Shown piece by piece: positions 80 through 39,720 of a stretch of 39,720 bases of DNA. Below the pieces are notes generated by a model, which was not told the DNA's origin, did not search any database, and saw only the letters and a list, made by a program, of their open reading frames with translations. Each line of letters starts with the position of its first letter. Within the stretch, counting starts at the first letter, position 1. The translations under genes were made by a program, and so were the position numbers. This DNA is from Patulibacter medicamentivorans (GTDB taxonomy: Bacteria > Actinomycetota > Thermoleophilia > Solirubrobacterales > Solirubrobacteraceae). The stretch lies in assembly GCF_000240225.1 (NCBI RefSeq), contig NZ_AGUD01000201.1, positions 1 to 39,720 of the forward strand, read 5' to 3'.

Positions 80-203
80 AGCTGACGCCGCGCCGTACGG
101 CGTGGCGTCAGCTCTCCGCACCCCGCGGCAGCTGGCGTCAGCTTGCCCCGCCCAGCGCGGGAAGATGACGCCACCTGCGGTCGGGGCCCGGCACGTGACG
201 CCA
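80..203. repeat. Structured intergenic repeat element, copy A
   Basis: Five copies of an 8-bp core lie at 83 (TGACGCC, forward), 103 (TGGCGTCA, reverse), 133 (reverse), 166 (TGACGCCA, forward) and 196 (forward), so the steps are 20, 30, 33 and 30 bp. The first two cores form a near-perfect palindrome at 80-113: a 10-bp arm AGCTGACGCC (80-89) pairs with GGCGTCAGCT (104-113), with CGCCG/CGGCG nested inside. Cores three and four can pair as a second stem with 8-bp arms. The same spacing and orientation recur at 15265-15384 and, partly decayed, at 38953-39072. All three copies sit between convergent genes. The role is unknown; a bidirectional 3'-end or terminator structure, or a phased protein-binding array, both fit. 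Confidence 0.8.
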
Positions 204-214
204 CCCGCCCCGGC

Positions 215-1696
215 TCAGGACTCGGCGGTCGCCACGCCGTCCGGCAGCGTGTCCCCCACCGGCTCGACGTCGTGGCGTGCCCGCCCGATCCCGGCGGCCG
301 CGACGGCGCCGAGGCCGGCGGCCACGATCATGAAGGTCCAGCCGGCCCGGAAGGCGTCGAGCAGCTCGTCCGGCGCCGGATGGCCGTAGAGCGCGACCAG
401 GATCGCGATCCCGAGCACCGACCCCAGCTGGCGGGCGGCGCCGAGGATCGCCGAGCCGGTCGCCAGCCGCTGCGGCGGCAGCGTCGTCGCGACGGCGGCC
501 GAGACGCTCGGCAGCAGCAGCCCGACGCCGACCCCGGTGATCATCATCCCGGGCAGGATCGCGCCGGCGTAGTTCGGCTCGAGGTCCGCGCGCCACAGCC
601 ACCAGGCGCAGCCGAGAGCGAAGATCGCACTGCCGGCGGTCGCGATCGGGCCGGCCCCGTGGCGCTGCGCGAGCTTGCCCGCGGGGACCGCGAACGTCGC
701 GGCCATCAGCGGCCCGGGCGCGACCGAGAGCCCCGCGGTCAGCACCGACTCGTGCCACGGGCCCGTCAGGAACAGGACCAGGCCGAGCAGCATCGCGGCG
801 AAGGCGGCGGTGAACAGCAGCGCCGCGAGCGAGGCCAGCGCGAACGGCCGCACCCGCAGCATCTCGAGGTCGATCACCGGCACCCGGCGTCCCTCGACCC
901 GCGCCGATCGCCAGACCACCAGCGCCAGCGCCACGATCCCGGCCGCGAGCACGCCGAGCGTCCGCGCGCTGCCCCAGCCGTGGTCGGGCGCCTCGACCAG
1001 CGCCCACGAGATCGCGGCCACGCCGGCCAGCAGCAGCAGCGTGCCGACCCCGTCCGGCCAGCGGCGGTCGGACTCGTCGCGCGACTCGCGCAGGACCCGC
1101 AGGCCGACCACCAGCGCGGCGATCCCGACCGGCAGGTTGACCAGGAAGACCCAGCGCCAGGAGGCCTCGACCAGCAGCCCGCCGAGCGGCGGCCCGAGCG
1201 CCGCGGCGACCCCGCCGACCGCCGCCCAGGCGCCGATCGCCGCCGGTCGCTTGGCCGGCGGGAAGGCGTCCAGCAGCAGCGCCAGCGAGGTCGCCATCAG
1301 CAGCGCCGCGCCGACCGCCTGGACGACGCGGAAGGCGACCAGCGCGCCGACCGACCACGCCGCCCCGCAGGCGGCCGAGGCCAGCACGAAGACCAGCAGG
1401 CCGGCCAGGAAGACCGCCCGACGGCCGACCCGGTCGGCGATCCGCCCCGTAGGCACCAGCAGCGCGGCGAAGACGATCGCGTAGCCGTTGAGGACCCACG
1501 AGAGCGTTCCGACCGAGCTGCCGTCGAAGCTCGCCTCGATGTCCGGGAAGGCGATGTTGACGATGAACAGGTCGAGGCTGGCCAGGAAGACGGCGGCGGC
1601 GACGACCAGCAGCACCACGCCGGGCCTGGCGACCCCGGCGGGCGGTGGCGCGGTCGCGGGGGGCGGCGTCGGCGAGGGCATCGGCGAATCGGTCAC
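215..1696 (-). CDS. MFS drug/solute exporter, DHA2 (14-helix, EmrB/QacA-like)
   Basis: A 493-residue integral membrane protein, probably a proton-driven exporter of toxic compounds. The N-terminal half holds the typical DHA2 features: a first helix with LDLFIVNIAFPDI, then GRIADRVGRR between helices 2 and 3, and a GPPLGGLL-type motif C near residue 160 that marks antiporters. Helices continue to the C-terminus with a hydrophilic tail of about 25 residues. I chose the GTG at 1696 because a GGAG lies 6 nt upstream of it; an ATG five codons later (1681) is possible. It is divergent from an HxlR regulator, with two inverted repeats in the gap, so local regulation by that protein is likely. The substrate cannot be told from sequence. 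Confidence 0.93.
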   Translation of the reverse strand: MTDSPMPSPTPPPATAPPPAGVARPGVVLLVVAAAVFLASLDLFIVNIAFPDIEASFDGSSVGTLSWVLNGYAIVFAALLVPTGRIADRVGRRAVFLAGLLVFVLASAACGAAWSVGALVAFRVVQAVGAALLMATSLALLLDAFPPAKRPAAIGAWAAVGGVAAALGPPLGGLLVEASWRWVFLVNLPVGIAALVVGLRVLRESRDESDRRWPDGVGTLLLLAGVAAISWALVEAPDHGWGSARTLGVLAAGIVALALVVWRSARVEGRRVPVIDLEMLRVRPFALASLAALLFTAAFAAMLLGLVLFLTGPWHESVLTAGLSVAPGPLMAATFAVPAGKLAQRHGAGPIATAGSAIFALGCAWWLWRADLEPNYAGAILPGMMITGVGVGLLLPSVSAAVATTLPPQRLATGSAILGAARQLGSVLGIAILVALYGHPAPDELLDAFRAGWTFMIVAAGLGAVAAAGIGRARHDVEPVGDTLPDGVATAES

Positions 1697-7864: not shown

Positions 7865-10800
7865 TCATACGGCGCTGCAATTTATGGTCTTGAGGAATCC
7901 TCGCCCATTCTTGATGAGATCAATGATAGGTCCGACTCCAGGTACAGCCAACAGCAGTGAGAAATTCCTACCGAGCTCCAAGCACTTGCCCTTCTTCAAG
8001 ACGGCGTTCACGACGCTAGCGGTGAGCTTGTTTGCGATGAAGGCTCCGCCAAGCGCACAAGCAACCCTCCCCGCAGGCGATCTCCCGGCCACCTTGCAGA
8101 CCCAATTGCCAGCGGCTCCTGCCCCTGCTGAGGTAACAGTCTCGATTAGGGTCTTCGAGTAGCTACGTCCGAGTTGGATTCCCAGACGCTTGAGGAAGGG
8201 CGTCATGCGATGGAAGACCACCACCGTATCGATTGCCTTCAGTCCGTCGAGGTCGAGGCAGTTGATGGGGTCCTGGTTGCAGTAGTCGTAGGCGTTCGCG
8301 GAGCCGCCCTCCACAGGATCCATTTGGAGGAAACGGCCGCTGGCGGGGTTGTAGACCCTCGCACCCATATGGATCAGACCGCCGGGGGTGAACGCGGTGT
8401 GCTTGCCGTAGCCGCCGAGCCACCCGTGGCGCAGCCCCTTCGGTGTGCTGGTGCCGGTGGTGTCTGCGGTGGCGCCGAACTCGTCGTACTCGATCCCGGT
8501 GCTGGGGCTCGTCGCGGTCGTCGGCGCGCTCGCCACGACATCGCCGTGGAGGTCGGTCAGCTCCCAGGTTGCGGTTCCGCCATCGGTCGAGGTCGCAAGC
8601 TGAGTGCCATCAGCATCAGCGACGTAGCGCTCCCATCCCCACGACCCGGTCCTCGCGACCGGTGCGTCCTGGTCGTCGGCGTAGCGCAGCACGCTGGTCG
8701 TCAACGACAGCCCCGTGTTCTGCGACGCATCCGACCGCAGACGCCGCAACGGATCCCGCGTCAACGTCTGCTTCGCCGGACCAGCCTCGATCGACGCCAC
8801 GAGATCATCGGTGTCATAGGTCAACGTGATCGCGCTGCCATCCGGACTATCGCCCGCCGGGACCGTCGTGGTGCGACCAAGATCGTCGTAGGCGTAGCCG
8901 GTGTTGCGCAACCGGTCGGCACCGTCGAGGGTGTTGCTCTTCGATGTGCTCGTCCCGGTGCCACAGGCACCACCCGAGCCCGAGGTCTTCGCCGTCAACG
9001 AGGTCCGGTTGGAGTTCTTGTCGAACGCATAGCCACGCGTCTTGCAGACCGTGCCGCGCTGCTCATCCGTCCCCGACAACCGGCCCACGGTGTCGTAGCG
9101 ATACGTACTGGAGGACTTCTCCGACGCACTCGTCGCGAAGCGGCCCAGCGCGTCCCGAGTCGCGGTGCTCGACGCCCACACGCACGCAGAACCGGTGCAC
9201 CCGGTGGTGCGCTCCCACTTCTGCGCCACCGGATCACCGTTCTCGTTGACTGTGCGCGTCAACTTCAGGTTGCCGGGCAACACTTCCTCGACCAACGCGC
9301 CATCAGCGTCACGATCGGCGGTGATGATCCCCGCTAGCGTCGAGTCGGTGACCCCGGAGACCTCGTCGCGCTCGTCATAGGCAACAGTGCGGCTGCCCCG
9401 CGAGTCCGTCGCCGTCGTCTGCCGACCATTGAGGTCGTACTCGTAGCTCGTCTGGCCGCTGTCAGCATCGGTGTAGCTCGCCAGACGGCCGTTGTCATCC
9501 CACACCCGAGTCACGGTCCGTGCCGGATCTGAGCCGATCGCCGCACTTGTCGTCGTCGTCGGCCGACCCGTGTTGGCGTCATAGACCGTCGTCACATCCG
9601 GGATCGCCCGACCAGTCGACGAGCTCGTGATCCGCTTCGTCTCACGCCCCAACCCGTCCCGCTCAATCGTCGTCGTCCGGGACGCCGGATGAATGCTGTC
9701 CGACATCAACTGCTGAACCGGATCCCACAACAACGAATACCGAAACCACTTGCCCGGATTCTGCCCCGACGCCGGCTGCGCCACCGGCAACGCGATGCAC
9801 AACGAGCCCCCGGCCGCGGCCGGCACCGGCAACCAGGTCGCGCTGTCGCACCACTCCGCACCGCTGATCCCGGAGTACATGTACCGCATCGCGTGGGAGT
9901 CCGATCCCGACGCCTTCGGCATCCACTTCTCCACCAGCAACGGATAGCTCGCGTGGTACCAGTACGTCGTCGTCGCCGCCTCAGTGCCCTCACCGACCGT
10001 CGTCCTCAACGGCTTCTTCAACTCCCAACCACGATCACTACCGCTGTTGCTGTAGGCGTAGCGGGTCACCCGCTCATCGATCACGTGGCTATCCGACGTG
10101 CGATACGCACCCTGCCTGGCCTCGGTCACCAGATGCTGATCACCCGAGAAACTGGTCGGCTTGCCCTGGTCGTAGGACATCGTCTTGTACTGCCGCGCGT
10201 TGGTCAACGCGCCACTGGCCTGACGGATCTCGTGCTCCGGGCCCATCTGACTCAACAGATCGACACCGTTCGTGGCATACACGTACTGCGTATCCAACGC
10301 CTGTGAGCGCGCCGCGGTCGATCCCGACGCCGCCAACGCGCGTTCGCGGTTGCGGGCCGTCAGTTCGCGGACCGTGTTGCCGTTCTGGTCGTACTCCGCG
10401 GTCGTGATGTTGCCTTCGGGGTCGGCAACGTTGACGGTCTTGCCGTGCACGCCGAGGTAGTTGATCGTCGCCCGGGTCCACGACGACGGCATCCCGCTCC
10501 CCGACGGCACCGCATCCGGCGGAAACACCGCCGTAGCAGTCTGCGGCCGATCAGTCTGCCCCCACGTCGCAACCGCCGACGGCGACAGATCACGCGGCGC
10601 ACCGGACCCCGACAACGGCACGTCGTAGACGAACGTCGTCGTCGCATCCGTCCCCGCCGGGTTCTTCCGCGTGATCGACCTGACCCGACCGGTCCCAGCA
10701 TCACCGGTGATCGCCTGGTAAGCGAACGTCCATGGCTTCTCGCCGGGCGGGGTGTACTTCGACAACCTGCCCTCGCTGTCGTACTCGTACTGCACCGGCA

Positions 10801-13687: not shown

Positions 13688-14590
13688 ATGCCCGCCCCGA
13701 CCTTCGAGACCCTGCTCTACACCACCGACGGCCCGGTCGCGACGGTGACGCTCAACCGGCCCGAGCACCTGAACACGATCGTGCCGCCGATGCCGCAGGA
13801 GCTGGAGGCGGCGATCGCTCGGGCGACGTACGACACGACGGTCAAGGTGATCGTGGTCCGCGGGGCCGGGCGGGCGTTCTGCGCCGGGTACGACTTCGGC
13901 GACGGGTTCAAGCACTGGGGCGAGGCGCTGGAGACCGACGGCCGCTGGGATCCGGGCAAGGACTTCGTGATGGCGACGGCGCCGCAGATCTCCCCCACCC
14001 AGCAGTTCATGAGCGTCTGGCGCTGCCCGAAGCCGGTGATCGCGCAGGTCCACGGTTGGTGCGTCGGCGGCGGCAGCGACTTCGCGCTCTGCGCCGACCT
14101 GGTCGTCGCCAGCGAGGACGCGGTGATCGGCACGCCCTACAGCCGGATGTGGGGCGCCTACCTGTCCGGCATGTGGCTGTACCGCCTGGGCCTGACCAAG
14201 GCCAAGGAGCACGCGCTGACCGGCCGCCCGTTCACCGGTCGCGAGGCCGCCGACGTCGAGCTGATCAACCGCGCGGTGCCCTTCGCCCAGCTCGAGGACA
14301 CCGTCGCCGCGCTCGCCGCCGACCTGGCCCGGATCCCGAGCAGCCAGCTGGCCGCCCAGAAGCTGATCGTCAACCAGGCCTACGAGAACATGGGCCTGGC
14401 CTCGACCCAGACCCTCGGGCCGATCCTCGACGGGCTGATGCGCAACACCCCCGACGCACTGGCCTTCATCGACCGCGCCGAGCGCGAGGGCGTGCGGGCC
14501 GTCGTGACCGAGCGCGACGGGGCCTTCGGCGACTACAGCCAGGCGCCGCCCGAGCGGCGGCCGAATCCCGAGCACGTGATCGTCCCGTGA
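13688..14590 (+). CDS. Crotonase-fold enoyl-CoA hydratase/isomerase family protein
   Basis: A 300-residue crotonase-superfamily enzyme acting on an acyl-CoA thioester in the cytoplasm. Visible features are TVTLNRPEHLNTI at the N-terminus, the first oxyanion-hole segment GRAFCAGYDF (about residues 60-70), and the second, HGWCVGGGSDFALCADL (about 123-140). At the two positions that carry catalytic glutamates in classical enoyl-CoA hydratase, this protein has Asp/Ser (GGGSD rather than GGGCE) and TPYSRMWG (no Glu). It may therefore not be a standard hydratase. An internal insertion around KHWGEALETDGRWDPGK makes it longer than the usual 260 residues. The start is the ATG 8 nt after the -10 box; the upstream in-frame codon at 13652 lies inside the promoter. 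The stop overlaps the start of the TetR gene, so the two form an operon. Confidence 0.87.
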   Translation: MPAPTFETLLYTTDGPVATVTLNRPEHLNTIVPPMPQELEAAIARATYDTTVKVIVVRGAGRAFCAGYDFGDGFKHWGEALETDGRWDPGKDFVMATAPQISPTQQFMSVWRCPKPVIAQVHGWCVGGGSDFALCADLVVASEDAVIGTPYSRMWGAYLSGMWLYRLGLTKAKEHALTGRPFTGREAADVELINRAVPFAQLEDTVAALAADLARIPSSQLAAQKLIVNQAYENMGLASTQTLGPILDGLMRNTPDALAFIDRAEREGVRAVVTERDGAFGDYSQAPPERRPNPEHVIVP

Positions 14591-15267
14591 GCGATCGGAC
14601 GAGCGCCACGCCGGTCGAGGCCACCCTGACCCGTAAGGGCCAGGCCACGCGCGCCCGGCTGCTCGCCGCCGCCGCCGAGGAGCTGCGCCGTCACGGCAGC
14701 GTCGAGGTCGCCGCCGCCGCCGCTCGCGCGGGCGTCGCCCAGAGCGTCCTCTACCGCTACTTCGCCGGCAAGGACGGCCTGGTCGCCGCCGTCGTCGACG
14801 ACTTCTACGACCAGTACGCCCGCGAGGTCTTCGACGACGCGCTGACCGACGACGCCGAGCTGCCGGCCGGCGCCACGTGGCCCGAGCGCGAGGCGCTGCG
14901 GCTGGTCCGCGAGGTCGAGTTCCTCTACGCCCACCCGCTCGGGCGCCCGATCGCGACCGGGCTGCTGCACGACGCCGCGGCCACCCGCGCCGACGCCGCC
15001 CGCCTGCGCGAGCACGTGGCGGCCGCCACCCGCAACATCCGCCACGGGCAGCGAACCGGCGAGCTGGATCCCGCCGTCGACGCCGGGCTGGCCGCCGCCG
15101 CGATCATCGGCGGCCTGCGGACGATGCTGGCCGAGGCGCTCGCTCGCGACCCGCCGCCGCCGGCGACGCAGGTCGTCACCGCGGCGCTGCGGGTCGGGCG
15201 GGCGCTGCTGGATCCGGACGGGACGGCGCCGTGGCCGACGCCGCCGCGCCGCGACCCGGCCGATTGA
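14587..15267 (+). CDS. TetR-family repressor of the crotonase operon
   Basis: A 226-residue regulator. The N-terminal helix-turn-helix domain (about residues 15-65) shows ATRARLLAAAAEELRRHG, then VAAAAARAGVAQSVLYRYFAGKDGL, the typical 'YRYF..K' end of the recognition helix. The C-terminal ligand domain is Ala-rich and not assignable to a ligand. It starts with GTG at 14587, overlapping the crotonase stop (GTGA), so it is translationally coupled. It very likely represses the promoter at 13634-13680 and is relieved by an acyl-CoA or related molecule; this is inferred from arrangement and from the perfect palindrome there. Its own TGA stop is the first three bases of core 1 of repeat element B. 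Confidence 0.88.
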   Translation: MSDRTSATPVEATLTRKGQATRARLLAAAAEELRRHGSVEVAAAAARAGVAQSVLYRYFAGKDGLVAAVVDDFYDQYAREVFDDALTDDAELPAGATWPEREALRLVREVEFLYAHPLGRPIATGLLHDAAATRADAARLREHVAAATRNIRHGQRTGELDPAVDAGLAAAAIIGGLRTMLAEALARDPPPPATQVVTAALRVGRALLDPDGTAPWPTPPRRDPAD

Positions 15268-15384
15268 CGCCACCGGTGCCGAGGTGGCGTCATCTCTGCC
15301 CACCTCGCCGGCGGTGGCGTCATTCGACCGCGCCGTGCGCAGGCAACTGACGCCGCCTCTGGGAGCGGCAGGCGAAATGACGCC
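15265..15384. repeat. Structured intergenic repeat element, copy B
   Basis: Cores lie at 15265 (TGACGCCA, forward), 15285 (TGGCGTCA, reverse), 15315 (reverse), 15348 (TGACGCC, forward) and 15378 (forward): steps of 20, 30, 33 and 30 bp, identical in spacing and orientation to copy A. TGACGCCACC (15265-15274) pairs perfectly with GGTGGCGTCA (15283-15292). Core 3 pairs with core 4, with two extra flanking G-C pairs. The first core contains the TGA stop of the TetR gene. The gap lies between the convergent TetR and carboxyltransferase genes, and the remaining 75 bp to the latter's stop hold nothing I recognise. Confidence 0.82.
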
Positions 15385-15459
15385 GCTGCCCCGCGACGGC
15401 GCCGTCGCCGGCCCCGCCCGCCCCCTCGCCGCCTCGCCACTGCCCCCCGGCCCACCGCC

Positions 15460-17157
15460 CTACATCCGGAACAGCGGCCGTCGCACCGGCTCCAGCGGGG
15501 CGTTGGCGCAGGCGTCCAGGGCCAGGCCGAGCACCCGGCGGGTGTCGCGCGGGTCGATGATCCCGTCGTCCCACAGCCGCGCCGAGGCGTAGACCGGATT
15601 GCCCTGCTGCTCGAACTGCGCGCGCACCGGGTCGGCCATCGCCGCCCGCTCCTCCTCGGAGAAGTCGATCCCGCGCGCCGCCAGCTGCTGCTCGCGGACG
15701 GTGGTCAGGACGGTCGCGGCCTGCTCGCCGCCCATCACCGAGATCCTGGCGTTCGGCCACATCCAGAGGAACCGCGGCTGGTAGGCCCGACCGCACATCC
15801 CGTAGTTGCCGGCCCCGTGCGAGCCGCCGACGATCACCGTCAACTTCGGCACCCGGGCGCAGGCGACGGCGGCGACCATCTTGGCGCCGTCCTTGGCGAT
15901 CCCGCCCGCCTCGTACTCGCGGCCGACCATGTAGCCCGCGATGTTCTGCAGGAACAGCAGCGGGATCCCGCGCTCGTCGGCGAGCTCGATGAAGTGCGCC
16001 GCCTTCAGCGCGCTCTCGCGGAAGAGGATCCCGTTGTTGGCCAGGATCGCCACCGGGTGGCCCATGACGTGCGCGAAGCCGGTCACGAGCGTGTCGCCGT
16101 AGAGCGGCTTGAACTCGTGCAGCCGGCTGCCGTCGACGACCCGCGCGACCAGCTCGCGGGCGTCGTAGGGCTCGCGGGTGTCGACCGGGACGACCTCCAG
16201 CAGGGACTCGGCCGCGGCCTCCTCCCCCTCCGCCGGCGGCTCGGGAGCGCGCACCTCCCACGGCGCGGCTGCGGCGGTGCTGATGCCCGCGATGCCGTGC
16301 CCGTCGGGCGACGACGCGCCGCCCGGCGAGCCCCCGCCGACCGCGTTGCGGCTGCGGGGCAGCGTCGCCACGATCCGGCGGACCAGCTGCAGCGCGTGCT
16401 CGTCGTCCTCGGCCAGGTGGTCGACGACGCCCGAGGTCCGTGCGTGCAGCTCGCCGCCGCCCAGCTCCTCGGCCGAGACCTCCTCGCCCGTGGCCGCCTT
16501 CACCAGCGGCGGGCCGCCGAGGAAGATCGTGCCCTGCTCGCGGACGATGATCGTCTCGTCGCTCATCGCCGGCACGTAGGCGCCGCCGGCGGTGCACGAT
16601 CCCATCACCGCGGCGATCTGGGCGATCCCCTCGCGCGACAGCCGGGCCTGGTTGTAGAAGATCCGGCCGAAGTGCTCCTTGTCGGGGAAGACCTCGTCCT
16701 GCTTGGGCAGGAAGGCGCCGCCGGAGTCGACCAGGTAGACGCAGGGCAGCCGGTTCTCCAGCGCCACCTCCTGCGCGCGCAGGTGCTTCTTGACCGTCAG
16801 CGGGTAGTACGTGCCGCCCTTGACCGTCGCGTCGTTGGCGATGATGAGGACCTCGCGGCCGTGGATCCGGCCGATCCCGGCGATCAGGCCGGCCGCCGGA
16901 ACGTCGTCGTCGTAGACCTCCTCGGCGGCCAGCGGCGCCAGCTCCAGGAACGGGCTGAAGGGGTCCACCAGGCGGTCGATCCGCTCGCGCGGGAGCAGCT
17001 TGCCGCGATCGACGTGGCGGGTCCGGGCCCGCTCGCCGCCGCCGTCGGCGATCCGCGCCAGCCGCGCCCGCAGGTCGCCGATCAGCGCCAGGTGCTGCTC
17101 GCGGTTGCCGGGGGCCGGCGCTTCCGCGCCCGCCGCCGCGCCGTTGGTGCCGCTCAT
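15460..17157 (-). CDS. Acyl-CoA carboxylase beta (carboxyltransferase) subunit, methylcrotonyl-CoA type
   Basis: A 565-residue biotin-dependent carboxyltransferase that would move CO2 from carboxybiotin to an acyl-CoA. N-terminal half-site residues are visible in [18 protein letters not shown] and [12 protein letters not shown], and the C-terminal half in [15 protein letters not shown] and [18 protein letters not shown]. These match the 3-methylcrotonyl-CoA carboxylase group (LiuB/AccD1) better than acetyl- or propionyl-CoA carboxylases. Between the two halves is a Gly/Ser/Ala/Glu-rich linker of about 50 residues (from [15 protein letters not shown] to [10 protein letters not shown]) that most family members lack in this length. 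The ATG overlaps the stop of the biotin-carboxylase gene (ATGA), so the two subunits are coupled. It is the last gene of the operon and converges on repeat element B. Confidence 0.92.
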
Positions 17158-21389: not shown

Positions 21390-22025
21390 GTGGCGCAACC
21401 TCCAGCCCGCCCCAAGCTCCGCGAGCGCTACGACGAGCGCCAGCAGCAGGTGATCGACGCCTGCGCCCGGGCGTTCGCGCAGCGCGGCTACCACGGCACC
21501 TCGATCGACGACCTGATCGCGGCGACCGGCCTGGCCCGCGGCGGGCTCTACCACTACATCGGCTCCAAGCAGGGCGCCCTGACCCGGATCCTCGAGGACC
21601 TGATGGCGCCGCTGCTGGAGGATGCCTCGGCGGTCGTCGACGGACCCGACGCGGCCCCGGCCGCCGAGCAGCGGCTGCGGTCGCTGGTCCGCGTCTGGAT
21701 GCGCCACGTCGAGCAGCACCAGGCCCACGTCCGCGTCTTCCAGCAGGAGCGCCACACGATCGAGGCCGACCCCGGCTGGGACGACGTCCGCCGCGACCGC
21801 GACGCCTTCTCCGCGCTCCTGACCCGGGTCCTGCGCGACGGCGCCGCATCCGGCGAGTTCGCGATCGACGACCCCGCCCTCAGCGCGCTGGCGCTGCAGG
21901 GCATGGTCAACCACGCCGCGACCTGGTTCGACCCCGCCGGCCGCCTCAGCGCCGACCAGGTCGCCGACGGCTTCTGCGACCTGGTCGTGCGCGGGATCGA
22001 CGGGAGCGAGCCGGGCGCCGTGTGA
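21390..22025 (+). CDS. TetR-family repressor divergent from the branched-chain acyl-CoA operon
   Basis: A 211-residue regulator with the helix-turn-helix at about residues 15-60 (VIDACARAFAQRGYHGTSIDDLIAATG, split here only by reading, then ARGGLYHYIGSKQGAL). The C-terminal domain contains RVWMRHVEQHQAHVRVFQQE, as in TetR proteins that control fatty-acid and branched-chain acyl-CoA genes and bind acyl-CoA ligands. The start is the GTG at 21390, 7 nt after a -10-like box; no ribosome binding site precedes it. Position makes it the likely local repressor of the dehydrogenase-lyase-carboxylase operon. A GC hairpin follows the stop. Confidence 0.88.
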   Translation: MAQPPARPKLRERYDERQQQVIDACARAFAQRGYHGTSIDDLIAATGLARGGLYHYIGSKQGALTRILEDLMAPLLEDASAVVDGPDAAPAAEQRLRSLVRVWMRHVEQHQAHVRVFQQERHTIEADPGWDDVRRDRDAFSALLTRVLRDGAASGEFAIDDPALSALALQGMVNHAATWFDPAGRLSADQVADGFCDLVVRGIDGSEPGAV

Positions 22026-22063
22026 CGTTCCGGTCGCTGGCCGACCGCAATGTGACAGCCGGT

Positions 22064-37445: not shown

Positions 37446-38933
37446 GTGAGGCGATCGGCCACCGGGTCCCGGGTGGAGCGAACCGCTGCCCGACGCCGGG
37501 CCGTGGCGACCGCCCTCGCCGCCGCGGCCGCCGCGCTGGCCGCCCCGGCGACCGCCGGAGCGCACGGGCTGGTCGTCAGCCGGCGCGACCAGCCGATCCC
37601 CGACTGGCTGTTCGGGTGGGCCGCCGCGATCGTCCTGATCGCCTCGTTCACCGCGCTGGCGGTGGCCTGGCGCCGGCCGCTGCTGCAGGACGACCACTGG
37701 CGACCGCTGCCGTCGCGCGCCGCGCGGCTGCTGCCCGGACGGACGGTGCAGGCGCTGGCCGGCGCGCTCGGGGTCGGGCTGCTGGCGACGACGATCTGGT
37801 CGGGGCTCGCGGGGACCCGCGAGCTGAGCCTGAACTTCGCCCCGACCTTCGTCTTCGTGACGGTCTGGCTCGGGGGCGTTCTGGTGAGCGTCCTGCTCGG
37901 CGACGTGACCCGGGCGCTGAACCCGTGGCGGGCGATCGGGCGCGCGGTCGGCGGGCTGCTGGGGGCGCTGCGCGGCGGCCGTCCGCTCCCCCACCTGCCG
38001 TACCCGCCGTGGCTCGGCCGCTGGCCGGCGGTCGTGGGACTGCTGGGGTTCGTCTGGCTGGAGCTGATCTACGACGCGCCGGGCGACGCGATGCTCGATC
38101 CGGCGACGGTCGCGACGGCGACGATCGCCTACAGCGCCTGGACCCTCGCGGCGATGGCGCTGTTCGGCGTCGAGCGCTGGATCGAGCGGGGCGAGACGTT
38201 CGCCGTCTACTTCCACCTCTTCTCGCGGTTGGCGCCGCTGGAGGTCCGCCGCGGCTACCTCGGTCGGCGGCGCCCGCTGGCCGCGGTCGGCAGCTGGCCG
38301 ACGCCACCGGGATCGCTGGCGCTGGTGCTGACCGCGATCGGGGTGACGGCGTTCGACGGCGCGCAGGAGGGCGCCCTGCGCGAGCCGGGGCGGTGGCTGT
38401 TCGAGCGGCTGCTCGACGCCGGGCTCGGCACCTCCGGCGCGCTGCGCGTGAGCAACACGCTGATGCTGCTCGCCACCGTCACCGTGGTCGCCGCCCTCTA
38501 CTGGCTGGGGATCGTCGGGATGGCGCGGCGGCGCGGCCCGCTCACGACCGGGGCCCTGGCCCGGGACTTCGCCCACAGCTTCGTCCCGATCGCCCTGGCC
38601 TACGTCGTGGCGCACTACTTCAGCCTCTTCGTGTTCCAGATCCAGGCCCAGTTCACGTACCTGCTCTCCGACCCGCTCGGCGACGGCTCCGACCTCTTCG
38701 GCACCGCCGGCGGCGGCATCGACTACGGCCTCTTCGACGCCGAAGGCATCTGGTACGTCCAGGTCGCCGCGCTCGTGATCGGCCACGTCGTGGCGCTCGT
38801 CCTGGCCCACGACCGCGCGCTCGCCCGCTTCGGCGACGCCCGCAGCGCGGCCCGCTCGCAACGGTGGATGCTGGCGCTGATGGTCTGCTTCACGACCGCC
38901 GGCCTGTACCTGATCTCGCAGGCGAACGCGTAG
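37446..38933 (+). CDS. Multi-pass membrane protein, 'fenitrothion hydrolase' annotation family
   Basis: A 495-residue integral membrane protein. A cleavable signal (ALAAPATAGA) would leave an N-terminal HGLVVSRRDQPIPDWLFGW, after which about ten membrane helices follow. Similar actinobacterial proteins are often labelled fenitrothion hydrolase after one cloned pesticide-degrading gene, but the label is probably not the physiological role. His residues in the late helices (RDFAHSF, YVVAHYFSLF, VIGHVVALVLAHD) could bind metal; this is an inference. The start is a GTG at 37446, with an in-frame GTG ten codons later. It follows the lipoprotein gene by 55 bp and could be cotranscribed. It ends in repeat element C. 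Confidence 0.78.
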   Translation: MRRSATGSRVERTAARRRAVATALAAAAAALAAPATAGAHGLVVSRRDQPIPDWLFGWAAAIVLIASFTALAVAWRRPLLQDDHWRPLPSRAARLLPGRTVQALAGALGVGLLATTIWSGLAGTRELSLNFAPTFVFVTVWLGGVLVSVLLGDVTRALNPWRAIGRAVGGLLGALRGGRPLPHLPYPPWLGRWPAVVGLLGFVWLELIYDAPGDAMLDPATVATATIAYSAWTLAAMALFGVERWIERGETFAVYFHLFSRLAPLEVRRGYLGRRRPLAAVGSWPTPPGSLALVLTAIGVTAFDGAQEGALREPGRWLFERLLDAGLGTSGALRVSNTLMLLATVTVVAALYWLGIVGMARRRGPLTTGALARDFAHSFVPIALAYVVAHYFSLFVFQIQAQFTYLLSDPLGDGSDLFGTAGGGIDYGLFDAEGIWYVQVAALVIGHVVALVLAHDRALARFGDARSAARSQRWMLALMVCFTTAGLYLISQANA

Positions 38934-38952: not shown

Positions 38953-39072
38953 CGAGGCGGGGCCGGGTGGAGTGGCGCCAGTTCACCTCGCTGCTGGTGG
39001 AGTGGCGTCAGTTCGCGTCGGTGGGCGGGGTGAGATGACGCCGGTTCACGGGTGGCGGGGTGAGATCGCCCC
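38953..39072. repeat. Structured intergenic repeat element, copy C (partly decayed)
   Basis: Cores lie at 38973 (TGGCGCCA, one substitution, reverse), 39003 (TGGCGTCA, reverse) and 39036 (TGACGCC, forward), with steps of 30 and 33 bp as between cores 2, 3 and 4 of copies A and B. At the expected place of core 5 (39066) the flank GGGGTGAGA is repeated but the core reads TCGCC, as if GA were lost. Core 1 (expected at 38953) is not recognisable. Like the others it sits between convergent genes. Confidence 0.7.
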
Positions 39073-39077
39073 CGCCG

Positions 39078-39720
39078 TCAGGCCGCGTGTCGCGGCGCCA
39101 GGGCGTCGGCCGCCGCCAGCGTCGCCTCCCCCACCTGCGCCGGCTCCAGGCCGCCGCCGTGCTCGGCGACCAGCGCCGCGACCAGCTGCTCGTGCGAGGG
39201 GGCGGGGACGACGTCGGCGATCGCCCCCGCCGTCTCGGGTCGCCAGGGGATCGAGAGCGCGGCGTAGACGTCGGTCAGCACCGGCCGCACCCGCGGCTCG
39301 TCCTCGAGCAGCAGCATCGCCGTCACCAGCGCCGCGCCGCGCACGACCCGCTGGGAGAGGCCGGCGATCTTGACCCGGCCCCCGACGTTGAGGCTGTGGC
39401 TGCCGGCGCAGTACTCGCCGTCCAGCTCGCCGACGTCGGCCGCGACGCCGACGCGGGCCAGCGCCCGCCGGATCAGGCCGGTCGCCGCCGCGTAGCGCTC
39501 CTGCGTCCCCTCGAAGACCGCCTCGTGGGCGATGACCTCCTCGTAGACCAGCGACCCGGGCCCGTAGGCCGCCGCGTGCCCGCCGCCGAGCCGCACCAGC
39601 GGGGCGAAGCCGCGGGCGCTCGCGGCCGCCGCGGCCCGGGCGAAGCCGGGCGCCCGCGCGTCGAGCTTCGAGAACGCCACCGTCGCCCCGGGCCGGTACG
39701 CCCGGACCAGCGGCGGGCGC
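39078..39720 (-). CDS. Lipoate-protein ligase A family protein, cut by the right edge
   Basis: The visible 214 residues are the C-terminal part of a BPL/LPL-fold protein, beginning RPPLVRAYRPGATVAFSKLD and continuing LVRLGGGHAAAYGPGSLVYE, where lipoate ligases have the substrate-binding R(R)..GG..V motif. Further on, GRVKIAGLSQRV matches the GRKIAGSAQ segment, whose Lys contacts the lipoyl-adenylate. These enzymes attach lipoate or octanoate to lipoyl domains. The frame stays open to the edge, so the true start lies outside; the GTG at 39680 is internal. It converges on the membrane-protein gene, with repeat element C between. Confidence 0.82.
   Translation of the reverse strand, partial: RPPLVRAYRPGATVAFSKLDARAPGFARAAAAASARGFAPLVRLGGGHAAAYGPGSLVYEEVIAHEAVFEGTQERYAAATGLIRRALARVGVAADVGELDGEYCAGSHSLNVGGRVKIAGLSQRVVRGAALVTAMLLLEDEPRVRPVLTDVYAALSIPWRPETAGAIADVVPAPSHEQLVAALVAEHGGGLEPAQVGEATLAAADALAPRHAA

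Follow-up and report, generated by a model that had tools for sequence, protein, structure and literature searches.

A lineage-specific repeat of evenly spaced, protein-site-like units in Patulibacter medicamentivorans and a candidate AbiEi-type partner protein

Why should short cores recur with identical distances and orientations in two intergenic gaps of Patulibacter medicamentivorans when the bases between them differ? The question was raised by an initial annotation of the window, a stretch of 39,720 bp that is contig C153 of genome G000 (5.09 Mb, 353 contigs, approximately 93% complete), in which five such cores had been reported at 15265-15384 and five more in the gap at 80-203. Both the positions and the offsets were confirmed. 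Counted as 7-mers, the cores of the copy downstream of a TetR gene (copy B), with core 1 included, lie at 15265, 15286, 15316, 15348, and 15378 (orientation F R R F F), and those of copy A, again with core 1, lie at 83, 104, 134, 166, and 196, with offsets identical to those of the copy B set. Counted as 8-mers, the core spacings of both copies are 20-30-33-30.

The window copies and the repeat family

Core 1 of copy B (15265..15271, plus strand) does hold the TGA stop (15265-15267) of the TetR_N gene (14587..15267, plus strand), the left gene of a convergent gap whose other side is a carboxyl transferase gene (15460..17157, minus strand). Copy A is faced by the 3' end of an MFS transporter gene (215..1618, minus strand), and the reading frame to its left, cut by the contig end and not called, appears to end near 70. 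A third element of the window, copy C (38969..39077), lies in a convergent gap between a gene without a Pfam match (37503..38933, plus strand) and an LplA-B_cat gene (39078..39680, minus strand); its inner cores (39004, R, and 39036, F) are intact, its outer R core matches at 7 of 8 positions, and its outer F core is worn (4/8). Rfam at gathering scores gave no match in the window, and no described family matching the element was found in open-licence papers, in agreement with the annotation, which had known of none.

The family element comprises four cores, two direct and two inverted (R-30-R-33-F-30-F), and is symmetric about one base. In copy B this four-site element (R2-R3-F4-F5) spans 15281..15389, with 8-mer cores at 15285, 15315, 15348, and 15378 and its center at 15335, and in copy A it spans 99..207, with the last four of the 7-mer cores given above (104, 134, 166, and 196). 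Core 1, which had been counted as part of the element, fell outside the family: in a scan outward from both sides of 35 elements, it was exact at the matching offset in 2 copies only (A and B) and present with one mismatch in 1 more. In copy A, core 1 (83..89, plus strand) forms a near-perfect hairpin with core 2.

Inverted cores (GGCGTCA N12-42 TGACGCC) were found at 28 places in G000, with exactly 25 bases between them at 24 places (reversed-pattern control, 0), and direct cores (GGCGTCA N10-40 GGCGTCA) were found at 62 places, with gaps of 23 in 41, 22 in 10, and other lengths in 11 by hand count from the listing (control, 2). The initial annotation would have given up the arrangement had such pairs lain at random spacings without an intergenic excess; fixed gaps dominated genome-wide, and none of the 35 copies that we aligned lay inside a called gene (single-base overlap in one copy), as expected from the intergenic location claimed at the outset. 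All four 8-bp cores matched at 7 or 8 positions in 31 of these copies, the other 4 having one or two cores with fewer than 7 of 8 matches, and 4 further copies were partial. Among 33 copies (the near-duplicates L089 and the first L092 copy were left out), identity between copies was 0.923 in the cores and 0.365 in the spacers, for which composition predicts 0.351, so that the interior is not homogeneous as in a miniature transposon (MITE) and the cores, approximately 92% identical amid near-random spacers, look selected. The description of diverged filler between conserved cores therefore held, and so did that part of the claim of selection for structure which concerns selection on the cores.

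The unit motif, gcGAGGTGGCGTCAgyTCgCCgCGcc, was derived from 140 units and reads alike in all four positions. The unit is asymmetric, with a weak half (positions 11-14) that varies and a core half that is nearly invariant, and is not a palindrome of 20 to 40 nt of the REP/BIME kind. Evenly phased protein sites, which the annotation had offered as an alternative to stems, gained support, the core lying within an asymmetric unit of approximately 23 bp that resembles a protein site. In 891 kb of G000, the strongest unit matches outside the 35 copies (score of at least 17, n = 8) belonged either to partial arrays or to one copy's extra core, and the other 36 matches above threshold were mostly inside genes. 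Three main-element copies have related filler (L092:9631 and 9847 on C156, which are 216 bp apart, and L089:6820 on C126) and are judged to be recent duplicates within the genome. Among the all-against-all comparisons listed, similarity between copies mostly stopped at the element edge. When direct similarity between the flanks of a copy was compared with that after flanks had been exchanged between copies (z ≤ 0.96 in 33 copies), nothing pointed to target-site duplications. From its sequence, the feature looks like one of approximately 35 copies of a lineage-specific repeat whose evenly spaced sites have the appearance of being protein bound.

Location of the elements and tests for base pairing

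The 35 copies were found in 21 convergent, 10 tandem, and 1 nominally divergent context and at 3 contig edges, where one neighbor is unseen, and the 4 partial copies were found in 2 convergent and 2 tandem contexts. Among gaps of at least 100 bp, an element, complete or partial, was present in 22 of the 37 convergent ones, in 12 of the 153 tandem ones, and in 1 of the 108 divergent ones; these densities are not genome-wide rates, since the G000 stretches were mostly picked for carrying the element. The scarcity in divergent gaps was significant (Fisher P = 1e-6). The single divergent case was the copy upstream of the gene for P0001, a protein described below. The family is thus dispersed, multicopy, intergenic, and mainly 3' of genes, as REP and BIME sequences are. 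Genes were called with a home-made codon-usage caller that may miss small genes, so that some contexts are uncertain, among them L078:3609 and L247, which lie in large gaps and count nominally as divergent. Synteny at the carboxyl transferase gene was uninformative: in 6 congeners, no array was seen in the 420 bases that follow it.

The initial annotation had proposed a conserved structure of two stems (cores 1 plus 2 and 3 plus 4) with an unpaired core 5. Base pairing would make arms of the same copy match better than arms of different copies, and in arm swaps over the whole element there was no covariation beyond the shared motif. For this reason, and given the rarity of core 1, the RNA stem model with core 1 was rejected, and the two-stem part of the earlier claim fell with it. 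The covariation test that had been advised gave nothing over the whole element and a weak, post hoc signal at the innermost pair, where columns 43-46 held 75 of 132 pairs versus 60.3 after swapping (7 of 5,000 shuffles; z = 3.1) in a zone singled out after several zones had been inspected. The count of structure pairs was in marginal excess, 15 to 81 of 500 shuffles equaling the observed measures (15 for percentage paired and 35 for covariation score). Pairing of the outer flanks with each other failed the swap test (z = 2.2 for 12 bases, 1.6 for 20, and 0.0 for 40), and an avoidance of pairing noted by eye at one dyad position in the congener G002 was dropped because the sample was too small. 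Direct and inverted units alike carry the motif, and for that reason recognition by a protein accounts for more of the pattern than a stem does.

Relatives, a candidate partner protein, and a second repeat family

The annotation had also suggested a search of relatives, which was empty for the exact arrangement and positive for a shifted form of it. Among 60 relatives, the exact arrangement was not represented by any family copy, the 3 single matches there having unrelated filler; it gave 5 single matches without the unit motif in the genome collection and none in viral contigs. A shifted motif would escape these exact-core searches. Run on 61 genomes with at most 63 candidates per genome scored under stricter filters, so that weak copies may escape, a covariance model of 33 copies matched in 2 of them, G000 and G002 (11 match rows at 8 places in G002, E down to 2e-6), and in none of the other 59. 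The G002 places have the dyad, the 30-bp step, and the register seen in G000 with a different motif, TGGGGTCGATCSGCGTCG, and a pattern based on this motif was found at 11 places in G002 (9 convergent, 1 tandem, and 1 nominally divergent) and was absent from the other 7 genus genomes. The arrays in G002 vary in unit number, with up to 8 units in a run, and some are near-identical 30-bp tandem repeats. In a core-blind scan, a score of at least 105 was reached at 30 places in G000 (891 kb scanned), at 11 places in G002 (400 kb), and nowhere in G001 or G005 (400 kb each); the stretches of G000 and 10 of the 20 stretches of G002, unlike those of G001 and G005, had been picked around known copies. 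The two array-bearing genomes, G000 and G002, could belong to close sister species, which makes their sharing of the arrays weak evidence.

At a locus common to both species, the array lies between the inositol-1-phosphate synthase (ino1) gene and a gene that separates the array from a PHP-domain gene. The separating gene in G000 encodes P0001, which has AbiEi_4 (Pfam, E = 1.8e-8) and DUF559 domains, and there is an element on each side of it. The syntenic homolog in G002 is 55% identical over 291 residues, has the same two domains, and carries a long array on its 3' side. The two called neighbors of P0001 are a PHP/glycosyltransferase gene and the inositol-1-phosphate synthase gene, and no AbiEii (DUF1814) toxin gene is among them. 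No P0001 match was found at the PHP/ino1 locus in the 4 checkable array-free congeners (PHP and synthase genes adjacent in G004, other DNA or genes between them in G001, G005, and G007); G003 and G006, in which the synthase was not found, were outside this comparison.

The predicted structure of P0001 (mean pLDDT, 86; pTM, 0.62) had as its best PDB match in Foldseek the AbiEi antitoxin 6y8q of S. agalactiae (E = 1.6e-6), and its C-terminal part matched the catalytic domain of I-Bth0305I (3r3p; E = 9e-3). The sequence profile reached 3hrl and 3r3p, and Vsr more weakly, and residues E212, D243, E254, D256, H261, and D270 were invariant in 7 of 7 aligned homologs. In the available excerpt of PMC7319586, AbiEi monomers are described as binding a pair of inverted 23-bp repeats with 3 bp between them at PabiE, and Rv2827c as binding four repeats. 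The inner core pair of our element can be read as 23-3-23, like the AbiEi operator, when the unit is set to run from -4 to 18, a boundary chosen by eye from information content. Among open-licence papers, we found none linking DUF559 or AbiEi proteins to dispersed repeats.

All 8 genus genomes, including the 6 in which arrays were not found, have matches to the P0001 family, 1 to 10 apiece (best homologs in array-free genomes, 47%), and no main-family element was seen within approximately 1.5 kb of the 5 other P0001 homologs in G000; the nuclease family alone therefore does not predict arrays. A plasmid search with P0001 gave no match.

A second family of repeats accompanies one of the paralogs. 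At L208:9058-9158 and 10348-10507 (C331), the palindrome ACGTTYCGGTCGCTSAGCGACCGGAACGT lies on both sides of an AbiEi_4/DUF559 paralog. Its half-site pattern had 21 matches in 954 kb, 19 of them outside genes, a count in which the two halves of one palindrome may figure twice (two shuffled patterns, 1 and 0). When as many as 8 mismatches were allowed, the complete palindrome had 36 matches in the 954 kb, 30 of them outside genes (10 convergent, 13 tandem, and 7 divergent), and was paired 9 times at a distance of 70 to 73 bp (shuffled palindromes, 1, 1, and 0). It was also found 4 times in G002, 3 times in G001, and once in G005, always inside genes. The window itself has a second-family copy at 22025-22053 (4 mismatches; ACGTTCCGGTCGCTSAGCGACCGGAACGT), which lies between a TetR gene, directly preceding it, and the gene for a TacA1-like antitoxin.

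A gene flanked by its own repeat, with dispersed copies of that repeat elsewhere, as in a REPtron, is thus seen twice, for P0001 with the main family and for the L208 paralog with the second. The second family also flanks the L208 neighbor gene and genes unrelated to the nuclease (L103:8763-9446, L193:4886-6196, and L113:4284-4754), and with 7 of its 36 matches being divergent, flanking alone is weak evidence. As a control, 303 genes with both gaps of at least 40 bp were compared for a dispersed repeat common to the two flanks. When such a repeat had to have 3 or more partners in common, it was found for 2 of the 5 AbiEi/DUF559-type genes that could be tested and for 3 of the remaining 298 genes (Fisher P = 0.002); when any shared repeat was accepted, the counts were 2 of 5 and 5 of 298 (P = 0.004); the idea for this test arose from P0001 itself, so that the P value is flattering. 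The 3 other genes were the L208 neighbor, L103, and L193, L113 having 2 common partners. A shared dispersed flank was lacking in 3 of the 5 testable homologs; L148, without a second called gap of 40 bp, was outside the 5, and no dispersal was shown for the repeats near the paralogs L205, L206, and L207.

Repeats of other kinds were observed beside further members of the protein family. Inverted GGGGCRAACGTCACTCACC pairs, 95 bp apart, lie upstream of a third DUF559 gene (L148:1789-1906, C87), and a similar GGGGCRAACGTCACTCACC pair (2 to 3 mismatches) at an equal distance lies in a convergent gap at L199:17038-17151. Just upstream of a fourth AbiEi_4/DUF559 gene is a perfect 21-nt inverted repeat, 1 nt apart (L146:1387-1429, C290), which looks like an autoregulatory operator, and tandem repeats of approximately 25 bp with the core GGTCGGGTGGCGCTGGC precede another DUF559 homolog (L145:922-1149, C332) and were seen nowhere else in 954 kb.

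Explanations for the arrays

We give a probability of roughly 0.48 to the reading that the element is a REP/BIME-like repeat whose units are recognized by a predicted AbiEi-type nuclease fusion protein. That the arrays are protein-recognized composite repeats and not simple stems is quite probable and better supported than the identity of the protein, for which P0001, predicted to be DNA binding and endonuclease-like and so far unstudied, is the likeliest candidate. Four asymmetric units of approximately 23 bp (up to eight in a run in G002) would make up the composite repeat, two or more standing head to tail at 30-bp steps with the inverted units opposite them on the other side of a fixed dyad, and each unit would be bound by one AbiEi-type monomer, P0001 or its G002 homolog. 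Protein and arrays would coevolve, and the nuclease, or recombination at the arrays, may have helped the arrays to spread. They would persist at gene 3' ends either because they are harmless there or because they aid bidirectional transcription end, with transcription ended by bound protein, strong hairpins, or both; the role most likely played by the arrays would be that of tolerated or useful bidirectional boundaries at gene ends. We put forward more tentatively the generalization that fusions of an AbiEi-type winged helix with a homing-endonuclease-like domain act as partners of REP-like repeats in this group, with individual paralogs recognizing approximately 23-bp units of their own repeat family in arrays of fixed geometry, spreading or maintaining these throughout the genome and mostly at gene ends, and with sites and protein changing together between species.

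It seems rather unlikely that the arrays are bidirectional terminators, which would fold as hairpins in both convergent transcripts and owe their shared motif to descent and RNA structure. The elements do stand at the 3' ends of genes, and 20 convergent gaps (60 to 350 bp) with elements folded far below shuffles (mean z = -5.0), as did 33 such gaps without elements (z = -2.9); each of the three window copies, too, lay below its shuffles in folding energy on either strand (z from -2.8 to -6.4, the weakest value being that of the minus strand of copy C). Because these gaps fold strongly, hairpins may contribute. A hairpin, however, needs neither an exact 30-bp direct spacing nor a motif common to direct units, the arm swaps gave no covariation apart from the marginal excesses described above, 33 of 53 convergent gaps of 60 to 350 bp held no element in DNA that had been picked for elements, and ino1 appears, from its sequence by eye, to own a hairpin beside the array. 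A gene adjoining one array in G002 (L246:10196-11464) encodes Rho_N and Rho_RNA_bind domains, an observation relevant to the terminator reading.

The arrays might instead serve some unrelated DNA-binding protein, concerned with the nucleoid, supercoiling, or replication, as an operator or architectural element with four cooperative sites. The phased 30-bp spacing, the dyad symmetry, the conservation of the cores, and the shift of motif between species would also fit this reading. We consider it unlikely, since a distribution of 2 in 61 genomes by the model would be odd for a housekeeping factor, and neither the lack of strong isolated sites in 891 kb nor the near absence from divergent gaps (1/108) favors it. 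A decaying MITE, or a RAYT-driven REP family with no present function, would be consistent with the recent duplicates on C156 and C126, with species specificity, and with a location at 3' ends such as the excerpt of PMC3733652 describes for REPs, and is nonetheless improbable: decay affecting cores and filler alike would have fitted, whereas the cores are conserved and the filler is near random, and target-site duplications gave no sign. Moreover, the Y1/RAYT transposase (PF01797) was absent from all 8 genus genomes in a search whose control was positive in 5 of 14 named genomes, the G000 assembly being approximately 93% complete.

REP repeats are widespread. In the available excerpt of PMC3733652, they are short repeats scattered through intergenic DNA, where they occur in opposite orientations and chiefly downstream of genes, with convergent and tandem gaps predominating and some families being species-specific; REPtrons are described as a gene flanked by repeats. 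As far as that excerpt goes, the P. medicamentivorans arrays resemble the REP/BIME and RAYT system in being dispersed and intergenic, in their opposite orientations, in lying mainly downstream of genes, in being species-specific, and in having a repeat-flanked gene. They differ from it in their asymmetric unit of approximately 23 bp, in the fixed 30-bp step and fixed dyad, and in the genus having no Y1/RAYT gene and a candidate partner of the AbiEi type with a homing-endonuclease-like domain. With the CGTC-tagged REPs, which according to the same excerpt are apparently without a dedicated transposase, our core shares the tetranucleotide CGTC, perhaps by chance, but our unit does not have the form of a tagged palindrome. 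A search of the main text of PMC3733652 did not find the word Actinobacteria.

The predicted AbiEi fold and the 23-bp inverted pairs recall the AbiEi operators (S. agalactiae PabiE and the Rv2827c promoter) as presented in the excerpt of PMC7319586. P0001 departs from AbiEi in lacking an adjoining AbiEii gene and in having a nuclease-like domain added, and its approximately 35 putative target arrays lie throughout the genome, mainly at 3' ends, whereas AbiEi has one promoter operator. P0001, a predicted nuclease, is like homing endonucleases of the I-Bth0305I/Vsr type in the profile and fold match of its C-terminal part and in its invariant acidic and histidine residues, but differs from them in being encoded by a chromosomal gene between metabolic genes. 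If the proposed recognition of the arrays by P0001 is true, the AbiEi-nuclease family, of unknown function according to Pfam, would gain a testable role in binding or spreading such arrays, and the two species with their shifted motifs would offer a natural test of protein-site coevolution. The system would then be a counterpart of RAYT and REP built from different parts.
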